This document shows, piece after piece, positions 12,038 through 55,048 of a stretch of DNA of 64,000 nucleotides (within the stretch, counting starts at the first letter, position 1; the number at the start of each line of letters is the position of its first letter). Position numbers and translations under genes: made by a program. Location: positions 1,922,001 through 1,986,000 of the forward strand of contig JAQJZZ010000014.1 of NCBI GenBank assembly GCA_030077755.1. Direction: 5' to 3'. The notes beneath the pieces are model-generated. The model did not search any database. It saw only the letters and a program-made list of their open reading frames with translations, and was not told the DNA's origin. The stretch is from Filosporella fistucella (lineage: Eukaryota; Ascomycota; Leotiomycetes; Helotiales).

Positions 12038-14743
12038 ATGCTTTTCCCTCTCTCAATCCTGTTGTTTGCCTCTCTGGCTTCAGCTGATTGCACCTCCGAC
12101 AATTGTCTGCGTGCTTTTCGAGCAACGCAAACTCCGACTCGACTGCAAGTGGCAAAGCAATTTTGTGCTACATTCAAACCAGCTGCTCCCACTGGAATCC
12201 CCTCGTTTGCGTCGAGTGCGTGCATCAAGAACCAGAATGGAAATCGTACTGCTAGAATCGCCAGTGCTTGTGCTTGCATTGCGGCATCTCCTGCAACGAC
12301 CACTGCAGCTCCTACCGTCGTTGCTACGCCTCCACCAAGCGGAGCATGTGCTCTTGTGAGCAGTTCATCCTCTGTTCAAAAAGCTGCAAATCCATCTGGT
12401 ATGAAAATCACGTGCACACGCTTAACCAGCACTGACTACCCTTCCAGCTACACCAACAGTCGCAGCATCTCTGGCTCGAGAATGTCTAAATTCTGTGCCT
12501 TTGAACAAGACGGCTGCAATTCAACTTGTTGATTCCATGTTCCCGTATCTGGAATGGCAAAGTGGTGAGTCGATCAGTACGTCATGGGGTTCAGAGTGAT
12601 TTGCTGATGTGTTTCAGATTCTGCATGGAAGAAGGCTCCCCCTGCCGATTACTTCTACCCGCCTCATGACATTTTTGCGTATCTGGCCTCGGTGAAGAAG
12701 AATTTGCAGGCCGATAAATATGTTAATGAATATGGTAAGTTATGAATCATTTGAATTTGAAACTTATTTTGTGTTCCGAGGTCAAACGGTTTTGAAGCTC
12801 AAAAATGCTGAGTGGGGCAAGGAGGGTTTGCTGACTTCATGATGCAGAATTTCAAGCCGATCTTTACCAAGTCTTTGCACGAGCACATGATGGTCATTTC
12901 GTCTTTTATCCGGATGCATTGACCAAGGCTTTTGAGTTTGGCCGAACGAGATCCCTCGTTTCTATTAGTGAGGATGGATCATCACTTCCCGTGATCAAGA
13001 TATATGGTGAGTTGTGTGGAGAGAGGTCAGGATAGAATTCATGCTGATTCGGAATAGAGGATTTTGTCGTCTCGAATTCTACAGCATCTGTCGTTACTGA
13101 GATTAATGGTGTTGAGGCTTCTAAATATGTCGCAGGCTTTGCCTATACTGCTTCTTTCAACCAGGATGCAGACGCAGCTTATAATTCGATGTTTTATGAG
13201 AAGGCATTCGTTGCAGGGGCCGTGTCTAATGGTTACTTTTCAGGAGGTGGACGTATGAGGTATGTTCTCTCTTTTGCTTTCTATGGACCATGCTGAAATT
13301 TACAGATACATTTATCCTGGAGACAACACGACTTTCACCTTCGCAAATGGATCCACCTTGACAACTGAGAATATTGCCAAGGTCAAGGGTAACTTCGCCC
13401 GAGTAACCAACGGAACTACATTCTATCAAGTCTTCTGTACCGGCCCAAGCAGCCGTGCTGGTGTAGCTGAAGTGGACGGTCTTGAGGTGGAAGCTGCAGA
13501 GGAAGAATTGGTTCCAACTGTCCTCGCTCCTGGGTATCCTCCTGCTGTTGTCATTACTTCTGATAGTGTTGTTTCGGGATATTATCTTGATGGCGCTGGA
13601 TATGAAGATGTGGCTGTTATCAGTCTCCTGGCGTTCGAATCGAATTCGGTCACTGAGTTCCAGTCAGTGGCTCAAACCTTCTTCGCCGCTGCCATTCGCG
13701 ACGGAAAGAAGAAATTGGTCATTGATTTGAGTGCTAATGGTGGTGGATATATTTTGCAAGGTTACGACCTTTTCAGACAGCTCTTCCCCGATATTGTCCA
13801 GGATGGGTTTTCTCGTTGGAGAGAGAGCGATACACTTCTCGCAATTTCGCAGGTTTACTCCAATAACACAGCAAATTTCGATCCAAGCAACGCCCCATCT
13901 AGTCTCGTCAATCAGTACGAAAGTTTCTTCAACTACCGTTACGACCTGAATCTGACAAATCAGAATTTCCAGTCGTTTGCAGACAAATTTGCTCCTCGAC
14001 AACTACGAGGTGACAATTTTACGGCCACAGTACGATGGAATCTTTCCGATCCTCTAACCACTAGTAATGGGCAATATGGTCTTGGAACAGATGTGACTGG
14101 ATATGGAAGCCGAACAAATTTCACTCAGCCATTCAAGGCAGAGAACATAATTATGCTACAAGATGGATATTGTGCCTCGACATGCACTCTATTTTCTGAA
14201 ATGATGCGAATCCAAGCAGGCGTCAAATCGATTGCAATGGGAGGTCGACCCAAGACTGGACCAATCCAAGGAGTTGGTGGTATCAAGGGAGCTCAGATTC
14301 TCTCCTGGACCGATATTTACTCTTCTGCTCAAGATGCGCTCAAAACTGCGACTCCTGAACAAGCCGAAATTCTGAAGCGTCTTTCACCATACCCCATCAA
14401 CCGTAGCTCAAGCAATGGTATCAATGTCAGAGATCAAATCCTTCGTGACAACGTGGAAGATGGTCTACCAGCGCAATTTGTTCGTGAAGAAGCAGATTGC
14501 AGACTTTACTACACCAAGCCTATGATCACTGACGTGACAGCATTGTGGAAAGCAGCAGCAGACGCAGCCTTTAATGGCAAGACCTGTGCAGCAGGTGGTC
14601 TATCCAAGCCAAAGAGAGGTCTTGAGAGTGTCCCAAGATCGAAGGCGTTGGGAGGCAAGACGAAGCCTAAGGTCATCAGGAAGGCAAAGACGGTAAAGAC
14701 TGCCGAGTGGGCTGCGAGACACGAGCAGAAGGTTATTCCTTAG
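12038..14743 (+). CDS. Secreted S41-family (CPAF-like) serine peptidase with N-terminal Cys-rich module
   Basis: Six exons (12038..12398, 12448..12564, 12618..12734, 12848..13006, 13058..13259, 13306..14743) give about 797 aa. A signal peptide (1-16) is followed by a Cys-rich module with DCTSDNCLRAFRA and SACACI, a Thr/Ala/Pro linker, and then the fungal CPAF-like S41 region beginning ACALVSS. The region includes ARECLNSVP, YLEWQSD, the AHDGHF segment with the candidate catalytic His (about 212-216) and GYCASTC with the candidate Ser (about 606-611). N-glycosylation sequons are frequent. Fungal relatives include the ustP-type S41 proteins. The C-terminal 40 residues are Lys/Arg-rich and unusual for a secreted enzyme. 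Function: extracellular or vacuolar endopeptidase by family; substrate unknown. Confidence 0.88.
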
Positions 14744-18967: not shown

Positions 18968-21900
18968 TCACCCAAGATCATCTGATTTCAACGGCTGCAT
19001 CAACTGCAAGTAGCCTTCCAACATTGTGTACGGTCCAGCCTCGAACCGCAACCTGCCATCATCTAACAATTTGTTAGCGCCTTACTCAAGACCAAAGCCT
19101 ATAAGAAACAACTTACCTTGTCCGACATCAAATGCATTATAGTGTCTCTTGCCATCAGATGCCTCATCCAGCGGATACGGCTCAAGCCAATTCCAGGTAC
19201 CTCTTCTTGCCGCCAGAGGCAATTTGATAGGAGCTTCATCACGATCACTAACAGAACCCTGTTGCCGGCTCAGCCAATCTTTGGCAATCACAGCCTTAGT
19301 AGAGTCATAGGCGCTGGGAAGGTTTTGTGTCACTAGAATTGGACCGATATGGAAGAATGCACCTGGAGGAAGCTCGGTCAGTTGAGAGGCCCTTGAATAG
19401 AGTTGGAGTCTGAAGACAAAACAAAGGGACTTACTCATTCTCTCGAAGACGCTCTGCACTGTCCAATCGGGCAATCTCAGCGATTTGATCGGTAATATCG
19501 GACTATATACATGCAGTGGAGTATATGGATCGATCAAAAGCGTTTTCACGTTGAGTTTGGCGGTATGCGCCATGACAAAGCCACCATTACCGAATTCTCC
19601 TTCCGGATGGATATAATAAGGACTCAATGTGTCAAAATTTCCTGGCTGGATTTCCGTACGTGGATCATTTTGCTCCACGGCTGCTCCACCAGATCGCATG
19701 AAATACGTATAGAGCTTAGACCAGTTAGTTACTCCTGGCTTGATTCTATCCAGGTCGCAGTACCCTACCACACCGTCGAAGGGCCGATCTTTGTCTCCAA
19801 TCTTGATGGGAAATTTGTACCCAAAAAGTCGATCGGCGTCCGATGGTTCGTTGGGTACTACTGGTTGCAAAGCAGGAATGACTTGTGACTCATGTGGTGG
19901 CAGAGCCAGTTCTAAGCTGAATCCGACATTGACAAGTGCAAAGGGCTTGCCAATGATTGAGCTTGCATATGTGCCATATGAGGCAGGAGCAAAGGACATA
20001 GATCCAACTGCCTCAACAATCATTTCCCAGAATGACCTCAGATATGCTGCCCCAGTCGTGGGATGAGACATCGCCGAGATGAGATTCTGAAGCTGTGGAG
20101 AGACAAGCTTGGAGAGACCAGGGGCGGGATCAAAAGGTTGCCATGATGGTGACTTGATTGAATTGGAAGGGCCCTGCCAAATAATGAGTTCCAATTCTCC
20201 AATGCTGCGATTCCTGATTTACTTACTCCTAAAGACATCTCAACGAAAAATGCCCCTTCCCCAGTGAAGAATTGAAGAGCTTGGTCTGCAACATTCACAA
20301 CAACCCTGTAACTCGTCAGCAGGCCACTCACGCTATAAATGCGAAGGGAATTAGAGCTCACCAGCCAAACACAGGTTGTTCCCAATCTGCAACATTTTTC
20401 CATCGAAGGAAGCGTCCAAAAGTGTCATATTGTGGAAGTACGAACTCAGCATTCAGTCTAGCCTCTTGATTGATAGCCGGCGTCAACTGTACGTATGGGG
20501 AAAGTGGATAGTCGCCTGGAAGGTTCTGATCGATTTCAGTTATTGGTGTTATCGTGTTCAACTGGGTGGTTCCAGGCACCAGTCCTGGACAAAGTTGATC
20601 CCCTAAACATGGGTAGATTGTGTTTTTCAAAGCAGTCTGATCTTGAAGCGGAAGCTCCGGAGATATTGCGCTTATAACTTGGCCAAACTTGTCAATGACA
20701 TTAAGTTTTGAGAATCGGAATTGTCCATGGGTTACCCCTTTGAACGGCCTTTTGGTGCCAGCCGAGAAATCAATCGTTCCACCGTATGGTGTCAAAGCAC
20801 TTTCTTCTCCAATGAGCTTGAAGTCAGCCTCAGTAAATCCGATCGGTGCTCCAGCGGTTAACGCAGCAATTATTGGATCACTTCCCTCTACTCCAGGAGT
20901 ACTGAAATTTGGCTGAACATGAGTCCCTTGCATGACAGTGAGGAGGTTCGTCGTCATGCCTTCCATCTCCGCAACTGCGAAGTGGACTTTGTCGATGTTT
21001 GCCTTCAGATCATTGATTTCTGTCTCTGAGAGGGTTACACTAGGATCCGAAAGCACCTGCTCGACGAGGGCTTTCAGATTGATGCCTGAATGTGGTAAAA
21101 GGATCGCACGCCCCGATACCGCTCGATTATCCAAACTGTTGCTGCGATCGTTGAAGATGCCTTCCTTGACGTCATATCGCACACGTTTCTGAGTACTGTC
21201 TACTGCGGATGTCGTCAAACTGACTGACCACTTGTCGAATGGAATGTGGAAATAGTCAGCCTCCCATTCGATGTACAGTGGACACCAAGGTTGCCCATTC
21301 CAGCGCTTGAAACCAAGTCCAGACCCACGATCTAGAGATAAGAACGACTCGCGGAGCAAGACATTTGCTGGTTGCCATACGTTTGGAGCGTATGGCAGAG
21401 GTAGTGTGGCATTGGGTGGAATGCTTGCTTTCACATCAGACAACAGTCTCACGCGAACATACCCTGCATACTCCGGGAGCCACCCAGTCTCCATGCCGGC
21501 CAAGCAAAGGGTGGGATCTCTTCTTTGAAAAAACGTTGATTGGGGCACACATCGCGAAGGAACGATCGCACCGACGCGAATTTGAAAGCCTGGAAGTCTC
21601 GGACCTTCGACAATATATGCCAAACGATCCTCCAATCCAGTGTCTGGCGACGATATAAGGGCCGTGAGTGAGATGACCTCCGATCGATATTTGGCGAGGA
21701 GATTCTGGTAGTATGTAATCCTCGCAACATCTTCATTCTGAACATCGGATACAAAACTCCACCATACAGAAAACAATGACCATCTCTTGAGCTTCAGCTT
21801 CCTTTTTGCTGTATCTAGCTGGTATTGCAAATCACTAGCCCGACGAAGAAATTCGCGCTCAGAGGCATCGAATCCTGCGATACGCTTGACACCTGGACGA

Positions 21901-23288
21901 GCTGGAGCACCACCAGGGGCTGCCTTACCATCGTAATGCCATTCTCGTCCACCTTCGGAGGGAGCGAAGTTGCGTGCGAATATCAGATCGGCAGCCTTAA
22001 GGCGAGAATCAAAATCATCGCCAGTGGATTCAAGCAGCTGCCCAAGACTGAGGAGGTCCTTTGCCAAGGAACCCGTTCCCGGCCCTAACGGCGCATTTTC
22101 AGTCCCATCCTCTGATCGCCCCTCATGAGCCCGAAGAAAGCTGAGAATTGCATCTAGTCCTGTTGTCCCTACCGATACTGGCTCCATGGGGGTATCGGTA
22201 TTAGATTTGAATAGGCCAGCGAATAGGTCCGCTGGTGTGTCCGGCTTTACATCGCGATCGTACTGTACGTTATATATTGTGCCATAGCAAAGGGTTCTGA
22301 ACTCTTTTTTTGTCTGGAGAAAGCGTTCTGGATAATCCAGAAAGAGAGCATGCAGTCGATGGCTTAATGCGCCAATCATACCCGCCTTGGTATATAAAGG
22401 ATCTTCCGTTTCCACTTCATGCCAGCCAACGATCGAGTAGTCGCAGTTTACTTTGGTCAAGTATTGGGTATTACCAGTAGGATCCTGAAACTGGAAGTTG
22501 TCAATGATCGAGAAAACGTTTGGATTGTGAACAGCATTGTCAGCAAAACAGAAGTTGGACGAGTTCATGACTGTAAGTGGAATACGTTTGGCATTAGGAG
22601 GTCGGTTGTCAGGCCAATTCATAGCAGGAAACTTGGCTCCAATATATACACTCGATTGTGCATTCAATGCATCCGGAGAACTGGGTTCAGATGCTGTGAC
22701 GTAGGGACTGACATCGGTTTCGAGGTCAACTTCAGGCCCAAGGTCGCTGATGTCGAACATCATGTCGCTTTCAACAATCCAAGCTCTTCTCTTTTCTACA
22801 GCCGGAGCCTCTGGCACAGAGGATCTGATGTTCCTCACTACACACCACCGATTAGGAACGAGACGAAACTCTGGGCTTGAGTTGAGATCCCTATTCTGCG
22901 TCACCATCTGTTTAGACGCATATTGGACCTCGTCGGCGCCACTTGTTCCTACACGGTACATTCGTGGAAGGCTCCAGTGTACATATACTCCAACACGGTT
23001 TTGCCTCAGCGGAGGAACCGTAGGAGAATCACTTGACGGATCATTTGCGTTAAGTAAAACCGATTGAAGGGATTCAGTAGCAGAAATGCGCGAATTGCTT
23101 GATGCTGGCTGACTTGACGTGACATCGACATGAGAGAGAATATCAGGCCGGATTTGACGCTTGTCAGGTCGAAGTCCAAGGTAGTCGGGTTGTGTGATGG
23201 GTGCAATTCGTGACTCTCCCGAGTCGCAAACTAGTCGATTCAAGATGAATGCATCTACATTCATTGGCACACATACAACGTCCGTCAT
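18968..23288 (-). CDS. Island protein A: large uncharacterised bacterial-type protein
   Basis: Exons 23288..20362, 20305..20227, 20173..19435, 19362..19117 and 19062..18968 give about 1361 aa. Stopping at the first in-frame stop near 19082 would lose a tail that reads GRLRFEAGPYTMLEGYLQL; splicing a 54-nt intron with a GCTAAC branch restores it. Recognisable stretches are GVYVHWSLP (about 100-108), VPNRWCVVR (about 144-152), WIVESD (about 170), YSIVGWHEVE, TLCYGTIYNV, and a helical, coiled-coil-like segment with RWSLFSVWWSFV (about 476-545). I recall this set from long hypothetical proteins of soil bacteria, where the function is also unknown. There is no signal peptide or membrane helix, and the rest appears beta-rich. 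It is divergent from gene B, 590 bp away. The start is the ATG giving MTDVVCVPMNVDAF; the upstream frame has only a TTG. Confidence 0.8.
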
Positions 23289-23878
23289 TGTTGCCGACTT
23301 GCAACGAATATTCGTGGGCGCTGGAGATTTAAATCGCAAACTTGATATTAAAAGCTATCCTCTCAATATCGGCCATTCTCAGGCGTGTAATTATGTCCAG
23401 CGTGAAATCTGAGTTGCTAATCGGGTAGAAGACTGGCCACTGATCAAATTAGTTGCGGCGCTTGGCAACATGGGATTTGCGCCACAAACTGGTCCTTCAA
23501 GGCAACCCTAACCGATGGCTTCTTCAGCCCTTCAGCTCCGAATCTCTCACTGCCTGCTCAGCAAAAAGTACGTCAAATTCCAAGAAATAATCAGGCAAAA
23601 GCAAAGGGCCAAGGATTCTGCAGATAAAAGAGGGGTTCAATTGGATGTGACTTGGAACAGATAGGGCTGGGAGCATACTCCATATACAAGAATACGGATT
23701 TTAACAATTGGTATGACGATTGCACCGCTATCTTCAGCCTCTACGAGACTTGCTGTGTTGTCTCTGCGTTACAGACAAAAACTCAATCTCTACAAACCTG
23801 TCTCATCTGCATGAGTGTCGGCATCAAATTCTGAGCTGCTTTTGATTCTCACAATTTTGCCATACAGGTCTCGCTGTC
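23289..23878. promoter_or_regulatory. Bidirectional promoter region of island genes A and B
   Basis: 590 bp separate the two start codons, which face away from each other. No clear shared motif or TATA box stands out by eye. Joint control of A and B is inferred only from the head-to-head arrangement. Confidence 0.45.
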
Positions 23879-26800
23879 ATGGCTAACCAGCACGTTCCAG
23901 AGGGCCCTGGTCAAATTGTTCTTTACGATCAGTATAAACCCACATTGTACGAAGGCAATTACTCCATTGAAGCGACACAAACCATTAAAACCACGGACGG
24001 TCAAAATCTTACCATCTACAACTATGACAGTCTCAGCATTGTTGAGCCTCCAGCTGGTCAGCCGGTTCCCGCTCCAGCTTTACATCCCCAACGTTTTAAA
24101 ATTGTGGCACCTCAGTGGAAGATTGACCCTAAGATCGTCAATTCTTGTTATCCACCAGATGGACATGCAGACGAAGGAAGGATCCTTCCCCATATTGTTT
24201 TCAATGATCCTCATCTCCCTTGGGAACGATCGCCATTTCCGGGCCCACCATTTCCTCCAGCAGTGCTGGCAGCTTTTGATCACAAACCGTGGCCACCGTG
24301 GATTGCTTTGGTTGTATTCGATCCTAACGAGCTCAAAGTGGATTCGGCCTCGTCAAGATCGTTGGGAATACGTGAGGACATGAAACAATCACATTCTGGA
24401 GCATACAAAATGTCAGTCGGAGACTTTTTGGGTAATATCAAGTCGAAAGCAGACTATAACACGGCTTACAACAAGAAAGGATTTAAACAGTCTGAGTTCA
24501 AAGAAATGCACTCCTCCAAGGAGCCGGTGGATGTTATCTTTACTTCGTCGAATGTTCTTAACGCTGTTTGTAAACATCCAGTCAAGTTTAAGTACATGTG
24601 TCATGTACGCAAGCTCGACACACATGGCCTTCCTGACGGTGCTGGGGAAGATAACCAGGGCCTCTATTCAATATGTGTGAGCCACCGGTCTGGGCCAATC
24701 ATGGTTCACAACCCCGAGAAACCCCCTGCTCCACGCCCTCAGATTGTTCACTTAATCAGTATTGAGTGCTTGATTGATGAAAATGGAGATCTCGTCCCTC
24801 CTGCAAACGACTCCGGCACCAGTATGGTAGGACTTGTATCGCTATACAGCTGGACTTATCTGGCTACCCCTCCATCTCCGAACAACCTCATCTCAATCAT
24901 GAAAGATCTTGGAGCGAAGAAGCAGCCACTGATGCCACCACAGCCGCTTTTAGACACAATATTGGGTTCTGCCGGGAGCACCGAAACCAAGAAGCAGATA
25001 ATGAACAAGAAGCTCCATGCTCGATTATCGCAAGGCTACAGCATGGTACGCTGGAGAACAGCAACAGGAGAAGAAACTGCGGCATACAATAGAGGACCAT
25101 TGACGCCCAATGCCACGGCACAGACGCTGACGATGTCAAATGACTGGCCTGATAGCTCCAGCACGGGAAAAGAATTTCAGATATTGGACAAATCCACGGG
25201 GCTTATGGATTTAAGCTACTCATCAGCCTGGCAATTAGGTAAACTCCTTGCTATAAGCGACACAATATTTTCATCAGCCCTGCTCCGGTTTCGATCAACA
25301 CTCTATCAAAGAGCCGCAAGCCAAGCGAGACTAGTCATAAATAACTTGAGATCTGCGCCAGAAATCCTGAGCAGCGCTACAGTTACTACAGCAAACGTCG
25401 CAGCCATTTCAAAAGACAGCTCAAATGTCCCAGTTCGGATACCTTTGGCATCTGGTCATGTCGCTCCAAAGGTCTTGGATCAGGCTAGTGACACCCCGGT
25501 TTTCAGCGATGCATTGCACAGCGAAATGGATTTTTTAACGGGATTTAGGGATGGGCTCCTCGAGACTGTTAATTACAGTTTGTCTGCCTCGCCTGATTTT
25601 GTCTTAATTCAAAATTGGATTGTTAACAAATTGCTCCTGAATGGGATACCCTTCCATTATCTTGTCACGGACCCGAGTCACTTGTCAAGTACGCTCGAAG
25701 CACCTCAAGTGAGAGGTGATATCAATCTTTCTCCTGAGGCACTTCGATTCTTCTATATCGACAATGTCTGGATGGATTGTCTAATTGATGGTGCTCTGTC
25801 CACAGCCAATCATTTGGACCCAGGTGATGACTCTCTTCGGAGGGAAATCAAGTCAATGTTCAACAAAAACCTAATTCGCAGCAAGAGGCCCATAGCACGC
25901 TATGGTTTTTTCTTGCGCTCTGTTGTGGTCAAAGCTATTCCAGACTTACGTATAACTGCTCGTTTACGGGTGAAAAATAGCTCGGGCGCGTGGCAGGAAG
26001 ATCCATCGCTGGATCCCAGCAGCAGCCCTATATTACGGTCAGCAAGAGTTGACGATCATACAATGCTAGTTCTGTTGAAATGTCTCCCAGAAGACCTTCA
26101 CTCCATTATCATTTCTCAGCCGGCGCATCAGCAAAGATATGTGGCTCCCCTTCCGCCCGTTCATGGAGAACCCTATCGGTTGAAGAGGTTGTACACTTCC
26201 GGTGCGCCACAACGACGTATTCCAGCCGTCACGACAAAAGACGAAGGGATCTGGGAGACCATATCAGATGCAGTTCTTGCGGAAAATGCTCGAGTAGAAA
26301 CATGGTACAATCCAAGAACTAGATGTATTGAAGTTGAGCAGATGACTGCTGATCTCGCGCAAATTCTGCCATTCAGTGAACCTCCCGCTGAATTTCATGC
26401 TCCTATCGGTTCAGCTGTGTTTTCACTGGAACTCAACGACAAATCATACTACATGGAAATTCCTTTCCCACCAGGGACCACACCCACCGAGGCCTCTTTT
26501 GTGCGACAGCTTTGGCTTCGACCTTCTCACGCAGAAACAGCATTACCTGGTCATCCGGTCTTATCACCTAGTCCACATCGTAGTGCTGAGATCATACCAG
26601 TCACTGTTCCTCGGAATCCTATAGCCTCTCTGCAACATCAACTCCTATTTCCGTTCACGCCAAGTGCATTCTCTACTCCCTTAGTCACTGGCCCTAGAAT
26701 CGAGTTCATACCTGATACGCCATCAAGTGGTGGTGGCCCCTTCCTGGGTAGAGACCGGTACATTCTATCTATTCACCCGTCATACCGGCCGGCTGCTGCT

Positions 26801-27391
26801 CGTCCCACGATCGTCCCCAACTCAACACCGGCCCGATTTCTCTTTTCGGCCCATGATTATCTTCCGGCTCAAACGACACGTCGAGTCGATCTCGTCTTCT
26901 CTTTACATCGAAATATCACAGGCATGTCGGGGTCCGACTTTGTCACTTCTATTACAATTATTATACCTATCGCTAGCAGTGGCGACATGCCGACTTCTGA
27001 ACCGCTGCTTGTTGGCCCGTATAAGGGACAAGGAGCCACGATGGTACATAATCGGCGCCTGACACCAACTCTCATATCCGCACCTGGCCAGTTACAAATT
27101 ACACTCAAAGCTCGTAATGCAGCTCCATCTGCGGAGCGTTCACTTGTCAATACACAGACTTCTGATGCCAGTTTTGTGCTTAAGGGTTGTGAGATCGCAA
27201 CGGTTAGGACTCCGGTGATGGTGGATGTTATGGGAGCTGGCTCTGTCTCGAGGGGCTTGGTGAAGGTTGGGGTTTTGTTCAAGACAAGACGGTTGTTTCC
27301 TCTACTTTCGCCGGCAAGGACAACGAGATATGCGGTAGATGTGGTTAAAAAGAGCGGTGTTGAGTTAGATGCTAGTGGACAGTCGGTATGA
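23879..27391 (+). CDS. Island protein B: large intronless bacterial-type protein
   Basis: One uninterrupted frame of 1170 aa starts at an ATG whose product opens MANQHVPEGPGQ. It is the longest intronless gene here. Motifs in order: KPTLYEGNYSIEATQ (about 20-34), SCYPPDGHADEGRILPHIV (about 89-107), LPWER (113-117), PWIALVVFD (about 140-148), YMCHVRKLD, HLISIE, WTYLATP, LSQGYSMVRWRT followed by AYNRGPL, AWQLGKLLAISD, FHYLVTDP, and LRFFYIDNVWMDCLIDGALS (about 620-640). I recall the same order of motifs in long uncharacterised bacterial proteins. It has no signal peptide, membrane helix or known catalytic motif and looks mostly beta-structured. It pairs with A (divergent) and is convergent with C, with 193 bp between the stop codons. 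The role is probably structural within a complex with A; this is inference. Confidence 0.85.
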   Translation: MANQHVPEGPGQIVLYDQYKPTLYEGNYSIEATQTIKTTDGQNLTIYNYDSLSIVEPPAGQPVPAPALHPQRFKIVAPQWKIDPKIVNSCYPPDGHADEGRILPHIVFNDPHLPWERSPFPGPPFPPAVLAAFDHKPWPPWIALVVFDPNELKVDSASSRSLGIREDMKQSHSGAYKMSVGDFLGNIKSKADYNTAYNKKGFKQSEFKEMHSSKEPVDVIFTSSNVLNAVCKHPVKFKYMCHVRKLDTHGLPDGAGEDNQGLYSICVSHRSGPIMVHNPEKPPAPRPQIVHLISIECLIDENGDLVPPANDSGTSMVGLVSLYSWTYLATPPSPNNLISIMKDLGAKKQPLMPPQPLLDTILGSAGSTETKKQIMNKKLHARLSQGYSMVRWRTATGEETAAYNRGPLTPNATAQTLTMSNDWPDSSSTGKEFQILDKSTGLMDLSYSSAWQLGKLLAISDTIFSSALLRFRSTLYQRAASQARLVINNLRSAPEILSSATVTTANVAAISKDSSNVPVRIPLASGHVAPKVLDQASDTPVFSDALHSEMDFLTGFRDGLLETVNYSLSASPDFVLIQNWIVNKLLLNGIPFHYLVTDPSHLSSTLEAPQVRGDINLSPEALRFFYIDNVWMDCLIDGALSTANHLDPGDDSLRREIKSMFNKNLIRSKRPIARYGFFLRSVVVKAIPDLRITARLRVKNSSGAWQEDPSLDPSSSPILRSARVDDHTMLVLLKCLPEDLHSIIISQPAHQQRYVAPLPPVHGEPYRLKRLYTSGAPQRRIPAVTTKDEGIWETISDAVLAENARVETWYNPRTRCIEVEQMTADLAQILPFSEPPAEFHAPIGSAVFSLELNDKSYYMEIPFPPGTTPTEASFVRQLWLRPSHAETALPGHPVLSPSPHRSAEIIPVTVPRNPIASLQHQLLFPFTPSAFSTPLVTGPRIEFIPDTPSSGGGPFLGRDRYILSIHPSYRPAAARPTIVPNSTPARFLFSAHDYLPAQTTRRVDLVFSLHRNITGMSGSDFVTSITIIIPIASSGDMPTSEPLLVGPYKGQGATMVHNRRLTPTLISAPGQLQITLKARNAAPSAERSLVNTQTSDASFVLKGCEIATVRTPVMVDVMGAGSVSRGLVKVGVLFKTRRLFPLLSPARTTRYAVDVVKKSGVELDASGQSV

Positions 27392-27584
27392 TAGCAATGC
27401 CTGAGCTATTTCATAAGTTCATTATATATAGGTAAATTATACCATCATATGCCGAGTGCACTTTCTGATTTTGTCTGACTTCCGACTGTGCACGCATCTC
27501 TTTCTGAGTTCAATATCTTCTATGCTTGTGCTGTCTTTCCCGAGAAGTTTCTTGATTTTTGCGAGCTACAAAAGTCTCTAACAA

Positions 27585-30255
27585 TCATGGATAGGATACA
27601 CCCGCATCGAAAAACTGCCACGCGATTCCGTACCAGTCCTGTACTGATGATGATGGTGACGTGGAGTCATCTGCCTGGAACAAGACTAGTATTCTATACT
27701 CAACATTTGGCTCAGCTTTCCACTGCACAATCTCGTAATTGTTATCGAATGAACTGGACGCAGCAACAAACTCATCAGTCCCCGCTGTGTATACCGCCAA
27801 GTCGTACCGCTTCTGAAGCACCGAGGTGTATGACCCAGCAAGAAGAATGGCATCGATATCATAAGAGCCTGTTGTTCTTGAATTCCATGCAATCGCAGCT
27901 TTAGCGATGAGATGGTCATTGCCCGCTGGGGTTTTCACCACCACTTGATACGGCGACCGTCTTCTTTCTTGCCCAATATAAGTTCGCAATATCGTCCCCC
28001 TATACCACCCCCCTTGCCTTGAAGGAACACTTGATGTCTGTGTGATGTCGACCTGGTTCCTAGCAATTTTCACAGCGGAATTTGTGTCAAGAATGCCAGC
28101 GCCATCTTTCAGGTCTGGCCATTTAGGCCCTTGTGCTGTGCCACGACGGATTTCGTCCCACCAACCTGGACCTTCGACGTCGACATATCCAACTCTGCGT
28201 CCTGCTGATGCATAAATGATAGCGCGGACGGTTTCAGGGGAATGCATCAGTTCGTCGCTCATTCCTTGCAATAGAGCAGCGGTACCGGACACAGCTGGCG
28301 CCGCGAGACTCGTTCCTTGATATTCATTTTTCGTCATCAGTATCCTCATGCCCATACCGCCCTATCAAAAAGTTAGTGATACATTATTGCTGATTGCTTG
28401 GAAGCCGAAAGGAGAAATTTTGCAATTCTAGGATCCTCATAAACGCTCAGGGACATTTTTTCTCGCTTCCCTAATTTCGGAGCATATACTCTTTTTCAAT
28501 ACCCTGAATATTCGACATATCGAACAATCGCAGACGTTGAAACGTGCCCAAGGTATTTATCAAGAGACAATATGAGTCTCGTTCCATGCCATAAAGGAAG
28601 AAGCCTAAAGAAAAGGGAACAATTACATGAGCAGTGATATCTGGAAGCTCGCGATCATGCTCTCTGTTTTGTGGCTGAGGATTGCCAAACAGAGATCCAT
28701 TCCACATGGTCTTACCATCTGGCTCATGAGCGCCCACGATCAGGCCGTTGTAGAACCGGTGCGAAACCTCCAGTGATGGATCACCTTCAGTATTTCCGGA
28801 GACCGAAACTACGAGGGGATATGGGTCGGTTGTGGCTGCCCAATCTATCATATTTTCCACATGGGTAATATCAGCTGCACTCGCCTGACCAGGATTGAGT
28901 CGGAAGCTGGCGTTGATGACAGTGCACCTATTGGTTATCATTGCCCATAGAAAGCTTTTTTCCGGATCCAATTCTAGTTTCCTTTGAGCAATTGGTGGCC
29001 ATATCCTTCTCAAAAAGTTTGCAAGATACTGCTCACATTCTGGAGCAAATCCGTGGTAATGCTTGTCTGGTTCCGGATGGTTATTTTGGATGATAGCGCT
29101 GGTGAGACAAAAATGGGGACGATCTGGAGGATCTTCTGCAGGTGCCCCTGCTGCATCTTCAAATTCCCTCCATTTTGATTTCCATGGATTGTTTCTCGGG
29201 GCTTCGGTGGTGGCCCATTGTCCATATTCCCATACGGCCACTTTGACCCCACGTCCTTGAGGTCCATTGCCACGATCGTGTGCTTCGATACATCTACTAA
29301 TCGTCATTGTCTCGTACAATCCGGGCATCTCTCTTGGGCTCATAATATCAGTTGGGAGCGTGACTGATTGATTTGCTGAAGTCGTGGAAAAATGGTGACT
29401 GACTATGGTACGAACATCTTCCAACTTCGCAACGGCTTCGATCTGACTACAGGTGAGTTGGGTGGTGACATATGGAAACTTGGGATGGTGGTCAAAAGTC
29501 ACGCCCAAATCTTTGATAGTAGTCATCACTGATGTTTTGGGTCGTTGGAACGACGTGAGATGGACTGAATCCCCCGAATCCATGGAAGGACGTTTAGCAA
29601 ATTTGTCATATCCGCAGTGATCATGGTCTAGCTTAGGCCAGATTGCCACTGCTATTTCTTCCTCCTCTCCTGCTTCCTGCATTCGATGCCATAGCTTTTC
29701 TCCAACTCGTCCGAATTTTGTCAATCGTCTCTTTTCGATACGTGCCAGTATCTCGCCGTAATTCACCTCATTCCCTTCAGCATCTCGAGCAATAGTCTCC
29801 ACGACATTAGTTCGCAGATTGAGTCCCTTGATGACATCAACATGATGAGTCCCTTCAGGAGGTTCTTCTTCTGGTCTCAGTCTTGTAGTACCCAGCTCTC
29901 CGACTGCCAAATGAAGCACACGCAGAATTCGGATTTCATCTGGAATAGTACCGCATATATTTTGAATGCGGAGAGTTTGCGAGACTGGTTTAACATTGAT
30001 TTGCTTCTCATTCATGTCCACAAGAGACCTGACCAAAATCTGGTACTGACCAGATCTCAGCCGCGCGGTAGAGATCTGGAAATCATGACCATCAACTCTA
30101 AACCCAATTCCCGACACTTCTTCTCCGTCTGCAAGTCTGACAATTGTCACAGCATGGAAGTCTAAATCATTGTGTAGTGTTTGAGGTGAACGAATTGTGA
30201 CGATTCTACCCTCTGGCACATACTCGCAATCAAGAAACGAAAATTTGAGAGCCAT
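27585..30255 (-). CDS. Island protein C: S8 subtilase-like protein with Glu in place of Asp
   Basis: Exons 30255..28627 and 28361..27585 give about 801 aa. An N-terminal beta-rich region of about 320 residues precedes the peptidase. VKVAVWEYG (about 338-346) aligns with the VAVxDTG strand of subtilisins, with Glu at the catalytic Asp position. RPHFCLTSAII carries the His (about 380), SVSGNTEGD the oxyanion Asn (about 486), and GTSLAAPAVSG the Ser (about 561). The C-terminal jelly-roll-like region (LAVYTAGTDEF, SSFDNNYEIVQW) resembles the tail of bacterial secreted S8 proteins, yet no signal peptide is present. The single intron (28362..28626) is 265 nt, long for this locus. Product: an intracellular protease, or an inactive scaffold if Glu cannot replace Asp. 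It is divergent from D and convergent with B. Confidence 0.85.
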
Positions 30256-30813
30256 ATCTGTACTGACAGATTATCTTCGGAGCTGGGTTTAAAGCAAGAG
30301 AGCTCTGCATTTAAAAATAGTGAATTACGAAGCTCCAGCGTCTATCCTGAGCACAATTGGACAATCGTTTAATGATAGCTATCTCCGACAGAGGACATAA
30401 TCTTTGACGCAGCCAAGGCAGAAGTAAATACATGTTGTTGTTTCCTCCAATCCAGCTGAAGTTTATTTTCAGCTCGGGTTGAAGTGCATGTTGTGTGGCT
30501 TGCCGAGCAAAAGGGGAAACATGCCAAGAGAGCAGGTATAGACGAAGCGGGTCGGTGAAAGAATGCAAGCTGTAAGTTGCAAGATATGTACATTTGTCAG
30601 TCAATCACTAGAATCGTATTGTCAACGTTCCGGCGCGATAAGCTGGATAAACTCACAGGGCAAACTCCAACTCCTGGCCTGAAAGATACCACATCCACGA
30701 CACAATCTGTCAAGCTTACCTGGGCAGTAACATTAATCAGGGCAAGTCGCGAAAGAGCTATATCACAAATGTGATTTTCAAGCCTCTGAAATCTACCTGC
30801 TGAGATAGCTGCA
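30256..30813. promoter_or_regulatory. Bidirectional promoter region of island genes C and D
   Basis: 558 bp lie between the two divergent start codons. Several GATA cores and an AT-rich TTTAAAAATAG stretch (30310..30320) are present but not distinctive. The arrangement and spacing copy that of genes A and B. Confidence 0.45.
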
Positions 30814-33800
30814 ATGGCCTTGAACCCGGATAGCTTCCTTGTCCCAGGTCGAGATGAAGTTGCAAATGGGGACAAATGGAATGCAATAATTGCACAGTCA
30901 CCACTCGGGATCAAACTATTTTCTCCCACATCCCCTATTAGATTAGGCCTCACAAATCTTTGGGGTCTCTCATTCTCCAGCAGCGAGAATGCTAGCCGTT
31001 TGGGTTCATTACCGGTCTCTTCGACTGCATCTACACTCAACGATGCAAAAGATGCAGTATTTTGCCTGGTCCGACCAGCTCAAACCCCACAGCCTGGATT
31101 CTCTTTCGTTACGATCAAAAATTTCTTTCAGATTATCCCCGAGGATTTCTCCCCAGAATTCGAAACTCTGGTGAACTTAATTGATGCTAACGGCCCAGTA
31201 TCATTCATCTTGGATGATGCTGCCAATTCGAGAAGTGCATTATGGACGCTTTCTGGAATGAATTACCGCACAGTGGTCATTCTAGTATTCAAGATACCAG
31301 ATATTGCTATTCCACCCATTAGAACTTTCATCCAGCAAACATTCGGGCTGGCTGTTCAGATACAAACAGCTGCACCAGGATCTACTCCCATCAGACTATC
31401 GATCAGTTGGACCATATCATATACGCCAAAGACGTCGAGCCCGCTCACATTCGGCTTCACATACGAATACTCAATTACTCTTAGTGTTCCTATCAACGGC
31501 TTCGATATGAATTTTACCTTCAGCGCTCTGGGTGTCAGTCTACGCATTGGGAATCCCAGCGGAGCCCGTCCGCCAGGCTCAGTCCTCAGCCGTCTGAACA
31601 CCGCACTTCTCAATCAGAATCCTACTTCAACTCTAGGCTCGGTAGATTTGCTCGATTCTAGTCCTTTCAATACGTTTTTCTCGAATGTTGATCTTTGGTA
31701 CATCTCACTGACGAGATCTGTCAATAAATCTCAAATTGGGAATGCAATCGCTACCCCTCAATTCGGTGCCCTAGAATGGCAGATCAATTTCATTGCCGAC
31801 TGGAGCGCTAGTAACGGAATTGTGGTTGCTTTGCGTTATGAGTCAAGAACTTCCTCATTCTTTGGAAGACTTCTATTCGACAGCGATGGTCCCTCTGCTG
31901 CATTGCCGCCAGGAGTTACACTGTCCGATTATGCCAGGCGCCAACATAATTTTGATGCTATGACTGACATAACCTCAGCAACTTCAAAGAAGCTGCCAGG
32001 ACCTATTGATGTTTGGAAACTTCTGGGTTTGAAAGCATCCGCTCCGTCACAGATTCCTCACCTGCTGACTGCAGCCAACCTCATGGTCAAGAAAGTCCCA
32101 AGCGGATTCATTGTATCGCTTCAGTCAGTACTTCGATCTGATTTCGCCCAGTCTGGTGGATCGAATAACAACGGCAATGACAAAGAGGCCCCTAACGGAT
32201 TTGTCTGGGATTTGATCTCCATAAATACTCTCACTTCGGTCGCAGGTCCGCAGAGGTCTCTTTCAGTGCGAGTTTCCACACAGATGTCTCTTCACCCCAA
32301 AAGTGGAAGCACTATTGAGCCCGCTGTTTTCGCAGTTGATGTTGCATATGAGGCAGGAGGCTCCTGGATACTGAACGGTCGAGTCTCTGATCTCAAATTT
32401 GCTCTGCTTTACAGTTTCTTCCACCCATCTGCTCAGGACTTTGCGTTGAAAGTTCTGGGTGATCTTGAACTGAAAGATCTAAACATATTCTACACTTTTC
32501 ATCCGAGCGGTAGCGGCGAGGCATCCTCTGGGAAAGCCTCTTCCTTTTTCATCACCGGAACCATAGCATTTGGCGATCTCGAGTTGACGCTGAACTATGA
32601 ATACGTGTCAACTCAAATTCAAGAATCAGGCCAGTCAGCATCTCACTTGTATAGAACTCAGCAAGGCATGGAGCCTGCGAAAACCCCAATGATGCCGAAA
32701 AATAACAAAGATCAGTGGACTTTCGCAGCAGTCTTGTCATCGGGATCTAAAAACACAACATTGGATAAGATTGTCAACACATTGACCGGCAAGAACTTAC
32801 TTCCTGAGTTCATCGGTGGGATAGAGATTCAAGCTGGCCCTGGAGGAAACGCTTCCGTTATGTTAATTCTCCGCGGCACAGATGACTTCACTGTGTTATC
32901 CCTCTACCTCAGCCTGGGGACTATCAGCGTGACGCTAGTCTTTCTGAGCCCATCTGGCAACGTTCAAGCATCCGGAAGCTCTGGATCGAAATCAAAAATG
33001 ATTCTGCGAGTGTCTTTGGATCAGATACCGATTGTTCCTGAAATACCCTTGGTGAAAGTAATGCCCATGCCATTTGACAAATTACTATACCTTTGGTTAG
33101 ACGATGAAGGGTCAGGATTGTCCAGAAAAGAGCTCGGTGTCATCAATGACGAACTTGGCACTCTTTCTATTGGAAGAATTGACTTCAAAGAAATCAGCAA
33201 GGACTCTTCACTTCCGGCAATAAGACCTGGTCATCACTTCATGGTAGTCGACAAAGGTAATGTGATCTTAGATCACTGCTTTTCTGAACCCAATGGTCAA
33301 CCCCCAGAAGGCCCTCCTCCAAATCCCCCGCCACCTGGAGGTACTGTCAAGGAAGAAGCCCCACCAACCAAGGGGGCTGTTGAGAAAAAATTACCTCTTA
33401 TCTCCATCTCAGCCCTATCTTTGATGTTCAAGAGCGGTCTTCTGGGCTTTGAGTTTGATGCAATGATAACACTTGGCTCGTTCATAAATTTCTCTCTTCT
33501 AGATTTCAGCCTTGGTGTGGACTTGGCGGTCCTTACCCGTCTTGCAGCGACAACTCCAAAATTCGATCTTCATGGACTTGCTCTATCACTGAACGCTCCG
33601 CCAGTCAAGCTCGATGGAATATTTGTGCGAGAAGTGACCGCCGAGAAGGAAAGTTATAGGGGCGGAGTGAGTCTTGGGTTTCAGACGTGGAACTTCCTGG
33701 CTGTCGGAGAATATGCCATTATAACTCTCGAAGGCGCAGAGTTTAAATCTATGTTTGTGTATGCCAAATTGATGGGTCCTTTGATGACGATTGGATTTGC

Positions 33801-35907
33801 TACGGTGTCCGGTGTCCGTATCGGGCTTGGGTATAACAGCGCAGTGCGCTCCCCTTCCATAGGAGACTTACCAAAATTTCCATTCTTGACAGACTCCGCG
33901 GATTCGAATGGAGGCAATGAGCCTCTGAAAATTGTCGAGTCTATGATGGCTCCATCGCCTAGTGGACCGGCCTGGGTTGCTCCAAAACAGAATGCATATT
34001 GGGTTGCAGCAGTAAGTTGTTGTTTTTCAGATAGATCAATATCTTGCAAATTAACTTGGGCGTAGGGCCTGACATTGACTGCGTTTGGAATACTTTCTGT
34101 CACAGCTGCAATGATGCTACAAATGCAGGAGCAAGGATGTATCATCTCAGTTTTTGCAAATGGCAAAGCTCAACTTCCGTGCAATGTCAGCCCGAATGCT
34201 ACATTGTTCTATGTTGAGATTGGAATGATTTCAGAGATCAACACGATCGAGGGGTACTTTACTGTTCAGGCAGCTCTTGCGCCAGCATCACATATCCTTG
34301 TTCCAAATTGTCGACTGACTGGGGGTTTTGCACTTGTAAATTGGTTCCATCCAAGCCCGCATTCTGGAGATTTCGTCTTTACCGTTGGCGGGGTAAGTCC
34401 AGTTCCTCCTTTCGGTATTCCCGAAGTCAGATAATAACAAAGAGCAGTATCACCGTGCGTACAAACCACCAGCATGGTATCCTATTGTCGAGCGGATTGG
34501 CATCTCTTTCACCCTAGGTGGTATGATTAATGTCACAGGGGGTGTTTACTTTGCTATCACCCCTAAATGTGTAATGGGCGGAGGATCCTTGCATATGGGC
34601 TTAGACGTCGGTCCAGTATCCGCTTGGCTTGACATAGCTCTCGATGTGTTCGTCCAGTTCAAACCATTCCATTATACTGCTGATCTACAGGTCTCCGTTG
34701 GGTGTGCTATTTCCATCAAGGTCTGGTTTATTCATGTACGCATCAGTGCAAGTGTGGGTGCTCTGCTTCATATTGAAGGACCTGATCCATTTGGCGGGGT
34801 AAAAATCCACTCGATGATACAAGATTTTACGGTCACTAACATTAAAGACAGTATGCCACTGTTGACTTCTACCTGTTCTCGTTTACCATTCATTTCGGTG
34901 GGAACGCTCTGCCTCCAGATGCAGCCAAACTCGACGAATTTTATCAGATGGTTCATCAACCTGGACCAGATTCAGCACCATCAGTGCCGAGTAGCCCACC
35001 TACAGATCCAATGATGGCCCAAATCAAGTTCAACCTGGAATCTGGCCTCTCTCCTCAATATCAGCAGCCAGACACTGTCACCAGCTCAGGACCATTCCAG
35101 GATACAGGAAGCTCCAAAGCGTGGATTGTCAAATCGGGTACCTTCAATTTCACCATCTCCTGTGAATTCCCACTTCGAACAGCTAGACTCAACAGTAGCA
35201 CAGGATTCATTGACATCCTAACGACAACACGGAACTTCGCTCCCTTCTTCGCCTCAAAACCAATGCATATTTCGACAGCTTCGACGAATCAAATCTTCTC
35301 GGATATTGAAATCACTATCAAGAATCAAGACAGTGTAGTTCTTGATGGTTTTACAGCAGTTCTTATCGAACGTCCGTTGCCAACTGCGCTTTGGGGCTCA
35401 TATTCTGAAGATGATGATCCGGCACGAAACGCATCTCCAATCAACCTTCGCAAAGCGGATAACCCAACCATCAGTTTAGCAGTCGGAATTTCTATTTCAC
35501 GTCCAGAGAATCCTGAAAATTTGATCTACAGCGGCATCCAGTCTTTTGATCCGGCAATTGCATTAAGAACCCCACTGGGGCCTTTCGCTCTTGAGAGTTC
35601 CAAAGATATGGATCCAGCATTCATTGCGGCTGCATCTCCACCAGTACTTGAAGCTGAATCTTGGAATAATTTCGGGCATGACTGGGTTACAGCAAGTATA
35701 CAGTCACAAAACATTGTCGGGAGTGTACCTGGAGAAGAAGGCATGCTGAAGATGGCTGCGGAATGGCTGGGATGGAACATGATACCTGTTCCGGAGTCCG
35801 GCGACAAAGAGCCTTGGGTGTTGGATGGAAAGTTGCCGAAAGGCCTACTGCAGAACTTTGGGACTGAATACCCTGTCCTGCCGAGAACGTGCGGAGTTTT
35901 CTCGTAG
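30814..35907 (+). CDS. Island protein D: giant beta-rich protein with DUF6603-type region
   Basis: Exons 30814..34011, 34066..34392, 34448..34798 and 34852..35907 give about 1643 aa. The first 820 residues are beta-rich with many Ser/Thr-Phe-Leu repeats and no recognised domain. A Pro/Gly-rich linker (about 823-850, with PPNPPPPGG) leads to the region I assign to DUF6603: LSLMFKSGLLGFEFDA, LHGLALSLNAPPVKLDG, FMV-type strands, CRLTGGFALVNWF, SGDFVFTVGG, GGVYFAITPKCVMGGG, FVQFKPFHYTAD and VDFYLFSFTIHFGG. Three of these only read through after removal of introns of 53-55 nt, which confirms the splicing. The final 330 residues form a separate domain. No signal peptide or membrane anchor. DUF6603 proteins are mainly bacterial and have no known function. 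It is divergent from C. Confidence 0.85.
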
Positions 35908-54281: not shown

Positions 54282-55048
54282 ATAGAATTATGGTGGTGTT
54301 TGCTTTACTTCTCGCACTGCACAAATGAGGTTACGAGATGTGGTGGTAGTGCTCAGCGGGTTTTCTTGTCAGGATAAGGGTCTCTTTTGCTCTGGTGTAA
54401 CTACTCAGGTCCTGGCGTCCAGGTCTTTTACGGGTTTCTATAAAAGAATATTATGCATTGAAATGTCGAGTTCTGCTATATGCGAGTTCTATTGAGGTGT
54501 TCTCAGGAATCTTATCTCCTTATGTGGTCTGCCTTCGACTTATAATGTAAAGATTGTCACTCAAGCAGTATGCAGCAGACTGTAGGTATGCTATAATGCG
54601 ATCAATTCTCATACCCCGAATTGAACTGGTGCACCAAGTGGGTGAGAAATTCTTGCTACAATCACAGCTTTTGTATGGGGACTGAAACACCTTGTATTGC
54701 TTTTGACTCTACTACCATTTACCTCCGCCAGTTTTGCGGGGGCGTTAAATGTGGCTGCGCATGAAGCGATCTCGTTGGCTGAATTGGTGTGATTTGTCTG
54801 GCCATGTTCATTGGGTACTCTGTATAGGCTTCTGGGAATGCTCACCGAATCTGGAGCACTCAGCCCCGCTTCAACTGCACACCTGATGATGGAAATATAT
54901 CGCTCTGCAATATCCAAGTCGCAAAACTACGATTTCTCTTGCTTTTGCTGCTTCATCCTCGAGCTTAGTTCCGAAACGTGTTTTGTGTTATCAGTCGAAA
55001 CCGCTGCCAACTCAAGTGTTGGCGACATAGTCTCACAAACAACCCACC
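54282..55048. other. Intergenic, 0.77 kb
   Basis: Downstream flank of fibrillarin and promoter of the HET-domain gene. No gene or repeat is seen. Confidence 0.5.

Follow-up and report, generated by a model that had tools for sequence, protein, structure and literature searches.

A four-gene island in the genome of the fungus Filosporella fistucella contains homologues of three consecutive genes of an operon that is conserved in Actinomycetota and Bacillota. The island occupies positions 18,968 to 35,907 of the 64,000-nt stretch that was analysed (the window), and its genes D, B and A are homologous to the first, second and third genes of the bacterial D-B-A operon, respectively. That the island is the fungal counterpart of D-B-A is, in our judgement, very probable. 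The fuller account, in which this three-gene system was joined in this fungal lineage by gene C and its products act through the complex proposed below, is more tentative and falls a little short of an even chance. These results place DUF6603, a single catalogued domain without an assigned function, in a system of three components, two of them new partner families, that spans two bacterial phyla, is widespread in fungi and is still clustered across the divide between bacteria and fungi. It appears to be an uncharacterised multi-protein system common to soil bacteria and fungi, and what is new is the set of genes described here; no such claim extends to its biochemical kind. To our knowledge, it is unusual for bacteria and fungi to share several genes for giant proteins that are non-metabolic. 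The bacterial operon offers a testable handle, and a result obtained with it would extend to many unannotated fungal proteins.

Spliced models bore out the arrangement given by an earlier sequence-only reading of four adjacent genes in two divergent (head-to-head) pairs, and none of the models had an internal stop, indicating that all four genes are intact. Gene A (23288..18968, minus strand; exons 23288-20362, 20305-20227, 20173-19117 and 19062-18968) encodes 1385 aa, compared to the ~1361 aa first read; the lengths read for the other three proteins agreed with the models. Gene B (23879..27391, plus strand) is a single exon encoding 1170 aa, and 590 nt (23289..23878) of intergenic region are common to the A/B pair. 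Gene C (30255..27585, minus strand; exons 30255-28627 and 28361-27585) encodes a predicted subtilase-like protease of 801 aa, and gene D (30814..35907, plus strand; exons 30814-34011, 34066-34392, 34448-34798 and 34852-35907) encodes a DUF6603 protein of 1643 aa; by the same models the C/D pair has 558 nt of intergenic region in common (30256..30813). Of the seven introns, six measure 53-56 nt, and five of these six begin with GTAAGT or GTGAGC; the remaining one, the only intron of C, spans 265 nt and contains CACTAAC, which resembles a branch site. Codon usage in the island resembles that of neighbouring genes, and eight of ten flanking ORFs scanned with Pfam matched families that fungi commonly carry, among them YTP1, HET and a fungal transcription-factor domain. 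Kyte-Doolittle hydropathy revealed no N-terminal hydrophobic segment in the island proteins, in agreement with the earlier view that they have no signal peptides, and two short internal hydrophobic stretches in D, near residues 692 and 1063.

To compare the island with bacteria, tblastn searches of plasmids were performed with A, B and D separately. The same bacterial records were returned each time, with the three genes on one strand in the order D(DUF6603)-B-A, which substantiates the bacterial counterparts that had been suggested for these proteins. The operon was found in Streptomyces, Embleya, Nocardia and Paenibacillus polymyxa, and several of the bacterial copies sit on plasmids. In Streptomyces sp. 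NBC_01276 and P. polymyxa, DUF6603 is annotated next to two large hypothetical proteins, and the D and B reading frames overlap in P. polymyxa. Among 15 bacterial loci selected with B, D adjoined B in 13 (missing in L029 and L041) and A was present in 14 (missing in L041); the L041 genome carries a full D-B-A-F set on a different contig (L081), F being a target-binding gene after A. When Actinomycetota loci were instead selected with DUF6603, a B-like gene lay directly 3' of D in all 12, eight of which were of a divergent subtype weakly linked to B; A was unrecognised in 8 of the 12. DUF6603 itself was present in 12 of 396 Actinomycetota genomes, a count that includes one known-positive centre. 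Across 27 bacterial loci, some of them cut by contig ends, F was recognised in 12 and not found in 15, and an MBL-fold gene before D was present in four and not found in 23. The downstream gene carries PLAT (8e-16) or F5/8C (9.8e-13, 7.7e-12) domains. The alignment of fungal with bacterial A (A5) extends through the C-terminus. The three homologous genes thus lie together in both settings, but in the fungus the minus strand carries A and the plus strand B and D, so that the same-strand bacterial order is not kept. The fungal cluster also differs by its introns, an extra domain on B and a protease gene between B and D, and F was not found in it; a search of the fungal genome with one bacterial F query, a weak test, gave no match.

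Three exons of D matched DUF6603 (PF20248) with E values of 1.7e-36 (first exon), 2.2e-27 and 3.5e-41, at 126.3, 96.3 and 141.8 bits against a curated cut-off of 27 bits; the fourth exon gave 0.048. D is thus a member of the family under which the bacterial first gene is annotated, whereas its partners A and B had no match in Pfam or NCBIfam at E <= 1. Profile searches against PDB sequences with the B alignment (A1) and the A alignment gave no matches. By hhalign, neither A and B nor D and F can be recognised as mutual copies (probability 0.1% for each pair). No toxin-complex or contractile-injection-system domain was detected in A, B or D using Pfam, and neither DUF6603 nor PF20248 occurred in any paper of the literature library searched. 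A phage origin is unsupported: tblastn of one bacterial B against phage records gave 0 relatives, none was found in viral contigs, and the only PHROGs match, on an F protein, had an E value of 0.23.

Structure prediction provided some indication of what B and D may be. Residues of B up to ~870 align with the bacterial second gene, and residues ~957-1161 are modelled as a beta-sandwich that is absent from three aligned bacterial B proteins. Foldseek searches of PDB and BFVD for the fold of the B core gave no match with E <= 0.001, and in the VIA list the C-terminal domain filled the matches, so that the core was barely covered. D has an amphipathic beta moment of z = 7.0, and its model contains long strands with ushers, barrels and ApoB as the best Foldseek matches. 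Model quality was poor (mean pLDDT 56.1, pTM 0.42, 7 rows). The 11 matches below 0.001, including ApoB100, had rmsd values of 31-41 A, and the barrel matches in VIA ~8-11 A with few exceptions. Given this model and these rmsd values, a barrel, a lipid sheet and an ordinary beta-sandwich are all possible for D. The likeness to outer-membrane beta-barrels or ApoB lipid sheets (rmsd 9.5 A over 246 residues at low model confidence) is a resemblance only, and unlike outer-membrane barrels, D has no signal peptide that we could see and occurs in Gram-positives and fungi, hosts without a Gram-negative outer membrane.

We infer a complex made in the cytosol in which D, as a very large amphipathic beta-sheet, may be the part that acts on membranes or lipids. 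A, B and D would be synthesised in the cytosol and join into one large soluble complex, with B and A as the scaffold and with the long amphipathic beta-strands of D forming a sheet that binds membrane lipid or inserts into it. In bacteria, the gene next to these three, whose PLAT or F5/8-type C tips are interchangeable, would direct the complex to its target; in the fungus, the extra adhesin-like beta-sandwich of B would take the place of a separate tip gene, and C might have a part in processing or arming the complex. There is only a modest chance that this mechanism is right in its details. A somewhat better chance, though still a minor one, belongs to the alternative that D-B-A is a housekeeping complex for lipid carriage or storage, an ApoB-like sheet with two partners, with the PLAT or F5/8C protein anchoring it to lipid bodies or the wall of the cell that makes it. 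Such a role would fit the presence of ApoB100 among the matches of D, the binding of PLAT domains to the surface of lipids, and the lack of any toxin domain in a Pfam scan of four bacterial D proteins. The patchy presence of DUF6603 in Actinomycetota, the plasmid location of several copies and the variable tips are better suited to an accessory role.

For the proposed membrane-active complex, the most likely use is a role in microbial conflict. The context for such a role is weak, since no relative of B was found in the phage records or viral contigs searched and no PADLOC family matched at E 0.01 for the three bacterial proteins of L027 or for A, B and D of the window (A and D scanned with the first exon only). 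The MBL-fold protein encoded 5' of D at L039 is similar to MBL models of defence systems (PADLOC LmuA 1.8e-7). An HNH-like stretch at the N-terminal end of D from L033 had no Pfam support and was discarded. The boldest version, a released membrane-active conflict machine of bacteria and fungi consisting of the D sheet, two scaffolds and exchangeable aiming modules, which passed between domains as a unit and in fungi was given new arms in the form of the adhesin-like B domain and, in one lineage, a Glu-type subtilase, would be a long shot.

Gene C had been described as an S8-type protease, and the family assignment held: the second exon matched subtilase family S8 (PF00082) with an E value of 4.6e-6 and 26.6 bits, above the cut-off of 21.8. 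In C and five relatives, the oxyanion Asn and the catalytic His and Ser are kept in 6/6 rows, but Glu stands at the position of the catalytic Asp in all six. C also differs from the S8 family in having no N-terminal hydrophobic segment. Judged by these residues, C is a rare subtilase-like predicted protease. The five relatives were the only homologues found; C had no match among ORFs from the 27 bacterial loci, its first exon matched nothing in plasmids and nothing elsewhere in the fungal genome, and a profile of its relative P0124 had no match among PDB sequences. This scarcity would also fit a chance neighbour that sits between B and D with no role in the system. We regard that as less likely, because all three homologues on contigs above 100 kb (352843, 113309 and 130435 bases) share the contig with A, and two of them also with B. 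C therefore looks like a clade-specific addition. Of the single four-member system first proposed, the A-B-D grouping stood, recurring in bacterial loci and in a second fungal cluster, while C, which joins A on the contigs of three relatives, was not found in the 27 bacterial loci.

Searches identified 60 homologues of A and 151 of B. Identity to Clohesyomyces aquaticus proteins was 72% for A and 66% for B over 98-99% of the query, a conservation that, on sequence comparison, is far above chance. B relatives span a wide fungal range including two named basidiomycetes, and no non-fungal eukaryote was among the named A and B matches listed, many of the listed rows carrying no name and 31 of the 151 B matches falling outside that list. 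The A and B trees agree in placing fungi on one side of a single branch. Fungal A and B are thus related to their bacterial counterparts, yet fungi do not nest among the sampled bacteria, and the trees give no direction for a transfer, so that acquisition from a bacterium, as first proposed, is a possibility only. Introns and codon usage look native, which suggests that any transfer was old. The lack of nesting and the wide fungal range would also agree with a fungal origin followed by passage to bacteria, or with a system that predates the split. This is unlikely, as bacteria of two phyla have a compact same-strand operon, only fungi occur among the named organisms in the A and B matches listed, and a bacterial order is presumably broken in fungi more easily than fungal genes are assembled into an operon. 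Assembly artefact or bacterial contamination, favoured by bacterial kinship alone, is refuted by the short fungal-type introns, neighbour-like codon usage, ordinary fungal genes on both sides and close fungal orthologues.

A single-sequence scan of the genome_contigs collection with B found no relative, and a broad six-row alignment had no usable stretch. The fungal genome contains a second A-B-D cluster, on contig C9. It has no match to C, and two small minus-strand ORFs between its B and D genes (B' and D') had no Pfam match. The two clusters are diverged from each other and have the same strand arrangement, with A opposite to B and D.

The giant genes A, B and D of the window very probably form a cassette shared by bacteria and fungi. 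In tblastn searches of plasmids, the first exon of D matched five records, B eight and the first exon of A eight; records of Streptomyces NBC_01276 (one), S. clavuligerus (three) and Embleya NBC_00896 (one) were common to the A, B and D queries, and Paenibacillus was not reached by the first exon of D. In Streptomyces NBC_01276 and on Paenibacillus polymyxa p-YT9A, B and A come immediately after a DUF6603 gene, the D and B frames overlapping on p-YT9A; this arrangement bears out the bacterial kinship claimed for A, B and D by the sequence-only reading. The D-query match of Embleya NBC_00896 lies ~100 kb away from B, and a different DUF6603 gene directly adjoins B there. A second scan, of genome contigs with two actinobacterial B rows as queries, gave 9 further loci. 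Joint occurrence in bacteria, put forward as a check for all four genes, was found for A, B and D among the 15 loci selected by B: D adjoins B in 13 (exceptions, L029 and L041) and A was detected in all but L041, hence in 14, the A gene of L036 being incomplete where its contig ends, as scored with HMMs built here and seeded partly from the same 15 loci. The Nocardiopsis genome with the lone B of L041 (9506-11806) carries a complete D-B-A-F set, F being the putative target-binding gene after A, on a separate contig (L081, 4125-15156). The D protein of L035 (5241-9962) has a C-terminal lactonase-type β-propeller (Pfam, 2.9e-9), and that of L033 (5985-7000) has an N-terminus that resembles an HNH motif on visual inspection, without Pfam support for HNH.

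As a sample independent of B, 396 Actinomycetota genomes were searched for DUF6603, which was found in 12 of them, including the known-positive centre G001, and in none of 14 control genomes. Twelve of 13 DUF6603 loci were compared, the thirteenth being the locus of L033 itself. All 12 have a gene in the B position directly downstream of D. The B HMM recognised it at E below 1e-30 in four loci, and A was likewise detected by HMM in four of the 12. In eight of the 12, the B-position genes form a single blastp family, a divergent subtype matching the B HMM weakly (E 2e-6 to 0.09; one locus without any link). Several divergent loci (the group comprises L070 and L073-L079, all Actinomycetota, sharing one divergent DUF6603 subtype with its own B-like partner) have a different large third gene without an HMM link to A, and others stop at contig ends.

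F follows A in 12 of the 27 bacterial loci and consists of a common N-terminal part and variable C-terminal modules. The F genes of L028 (20770-23522), L030 (21251-23299) and L038 (13733-15928) share the N-terminus and have exchangeable tips: PLAT in one of the two F genes of L028, F5/8 type C in L030 and L038. No C-terminal module was recognised at the cut-off in L037 or in the scanned pair of L034, where a separate F5/8C gene directly follows A. One bacterial F protein used as query, a weak test, had no match in the fungal genome. An MBL-fold gene lies directly upstream of D in L039 (599-2959), L028 (8843-10624) and L030 (9396-10574), and weakly in L069; the L039 protein matched the defence MBL models LmuA (1.8e-7) and RTasMBL (8.4e-5).

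The fungal assembly comprises 45.8 Mb in 19 contigs, with the window at C13:1922001-1986000. Models derived from open frames, splice sites and homology uphold the four giant genes reported earlier, all without internal stops: A (23288..18968, minus strand, 1385 aa), B (23879..27391, plus, 1170 aa), C (30255..27585, minus, 801 aa) and D (30814..35907, plus, 1643 aa). Their introns measure 53-56 nt, except one of 265 nt in C, and their GC3 is 0.43-0.45 compared to 0.42-0.58 in ten flanking ORFs. The correlation in codon usage between A-D and the flanking ORFs is 0.56-0.73; for each flanking ORF against the other nine it is 0.23-0.66, noise being smaller in longer genes. Eight of the ten flanking ORFs scanned have Pfam matches, including a fungal transcription-factor domain, YTP1, GH30 and HET. 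Intron sizes, GC3, codon usage and fungal neighbours together show that A-D are native to the fungal chromosome. The window also encodes a protein matching CPAF-like PDZ and S41 peptidase (13259-14740) and a HET-domain heterokaryon incompatibility gene (55031-56587; PF06985, 3.3e-14).

A word-based search, which distant relatives escape, found 151 homologues of B (7996 scored candidates), 60 of A (7991) and 5 of C (7995) at E <= 0.001. All organisms named among the A and B matches listed (for B, the best 120 of 151) are fungi, mainly ascomycetes of many classes, with two basidiomycetes among the B matches listed. Comparison of the match lists, with equal-sized contigs as a proxy that says nothing on adjacency, put A together with B five times, and C together with A three times (twice with B as well); all three C homologues on contigs >100 kb share the contig with A. 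The tags of Squamulea A and B (Q9209_004484 and Q9209_004486) suggest that these genes lie close together.

The same genome holds a second cluster on contig C9, with A' (2335064-2330296, minus), B' (2335912-2340045, plus) and D' (about 2344062-2347885, plus), homologues of A, B and D in the gene order and orientation of the window. A' with a Phialocephala A, and B' with a Cadophora B, share 54-76% identity when compared in pieces, against about 31-44% between A' or B' and the Clohesyomyces type, which includes the window copy. By these identities, two old, separate cluster lineages are present together in one genome. At residue 42 of B', homology is interrupted over 46 nt, consistent with an intron, whereas B is continuous. 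In this second cluster (C9:2330296-2347885), small minus-strand ORFs stand between B' and D' in place of C.

Trees that took in 34 of the 120 B homologues listed, and 22 of the 60 listed for A, were built by quick searches, which gave warnings for long branches and unequal composition. The B tree has 52 rows, 17 bacterial and 35 in the fungal group (4 assigned to fungi in this analysis, not by name); the A tree has 40, with 18 fungal (one assigned without an organism name), 16 bacterial and 6 weak matches falling on the bacterial side. All fungi lie on one side of a single branch in the B tree (SH-aLRT 100), and likewise in the A tree. The trees bear out the kinship behind the proposed acquisition from a bacterium, with transfer from bacterium to fungus as one possible direction. 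Both trees pair the window gene with Clohesyomyces as its sister, and the pair then with lichen fungi (Squamulea; in the A tree also Kuettlingeria and Pyrenodesmia), and the nearest kin of the C9 cluster in the A tree are Phialocephala, Tricladium and Cadophora. Lindgomyces, of the same family as Clohesyomyces, lies far from it in the A tree; this distance suggests either paralogy or exchange between fungi.

DUF6603 was matched above the cut-off by three exons of D and weakly by a fourth (0.048); A and B had no Pfam or NCBIfam match at E <= 1. Kyte-Doolittle analysis found no N-terminal hydrophobic segment in A, B, C or D, in agreement with the reported lack of signal peptides, and two short internal segments in D. 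Strong β-type amphipathicity is seen in D alone (z = 7.0 relative to 30 shuffles, compared to 1.9 for A, -0.2 for B and 0.5 for C). The mechanism proposed, a membrane- or lipid-active A-B-D complex, seems unlikely to hold in detail.

Of the shared four-gene system proposed earlier, A, B and D hold together in bacterial loci, and C was found neither in the bacterial loci nor in plasmids; we lean slightly towards C being a functional part of the system. The first exon of C finds only itself in the fungal genome. Only one relative looks bacterial: P0125 (E 6.8e-7), which carries a PPC domain and, by our reading of its N-terminus, a putative lipoprotein-like start. The peptidase S8 match of C lies in its second exon. 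In C and five relatives His, Asn and Ser are conserved and Glu occupies the subtilase Asp position (6 of 6 rows); these Glu-His-Ser subtilases (window 27585-30255) are possibly a distinct S8 subgroup.
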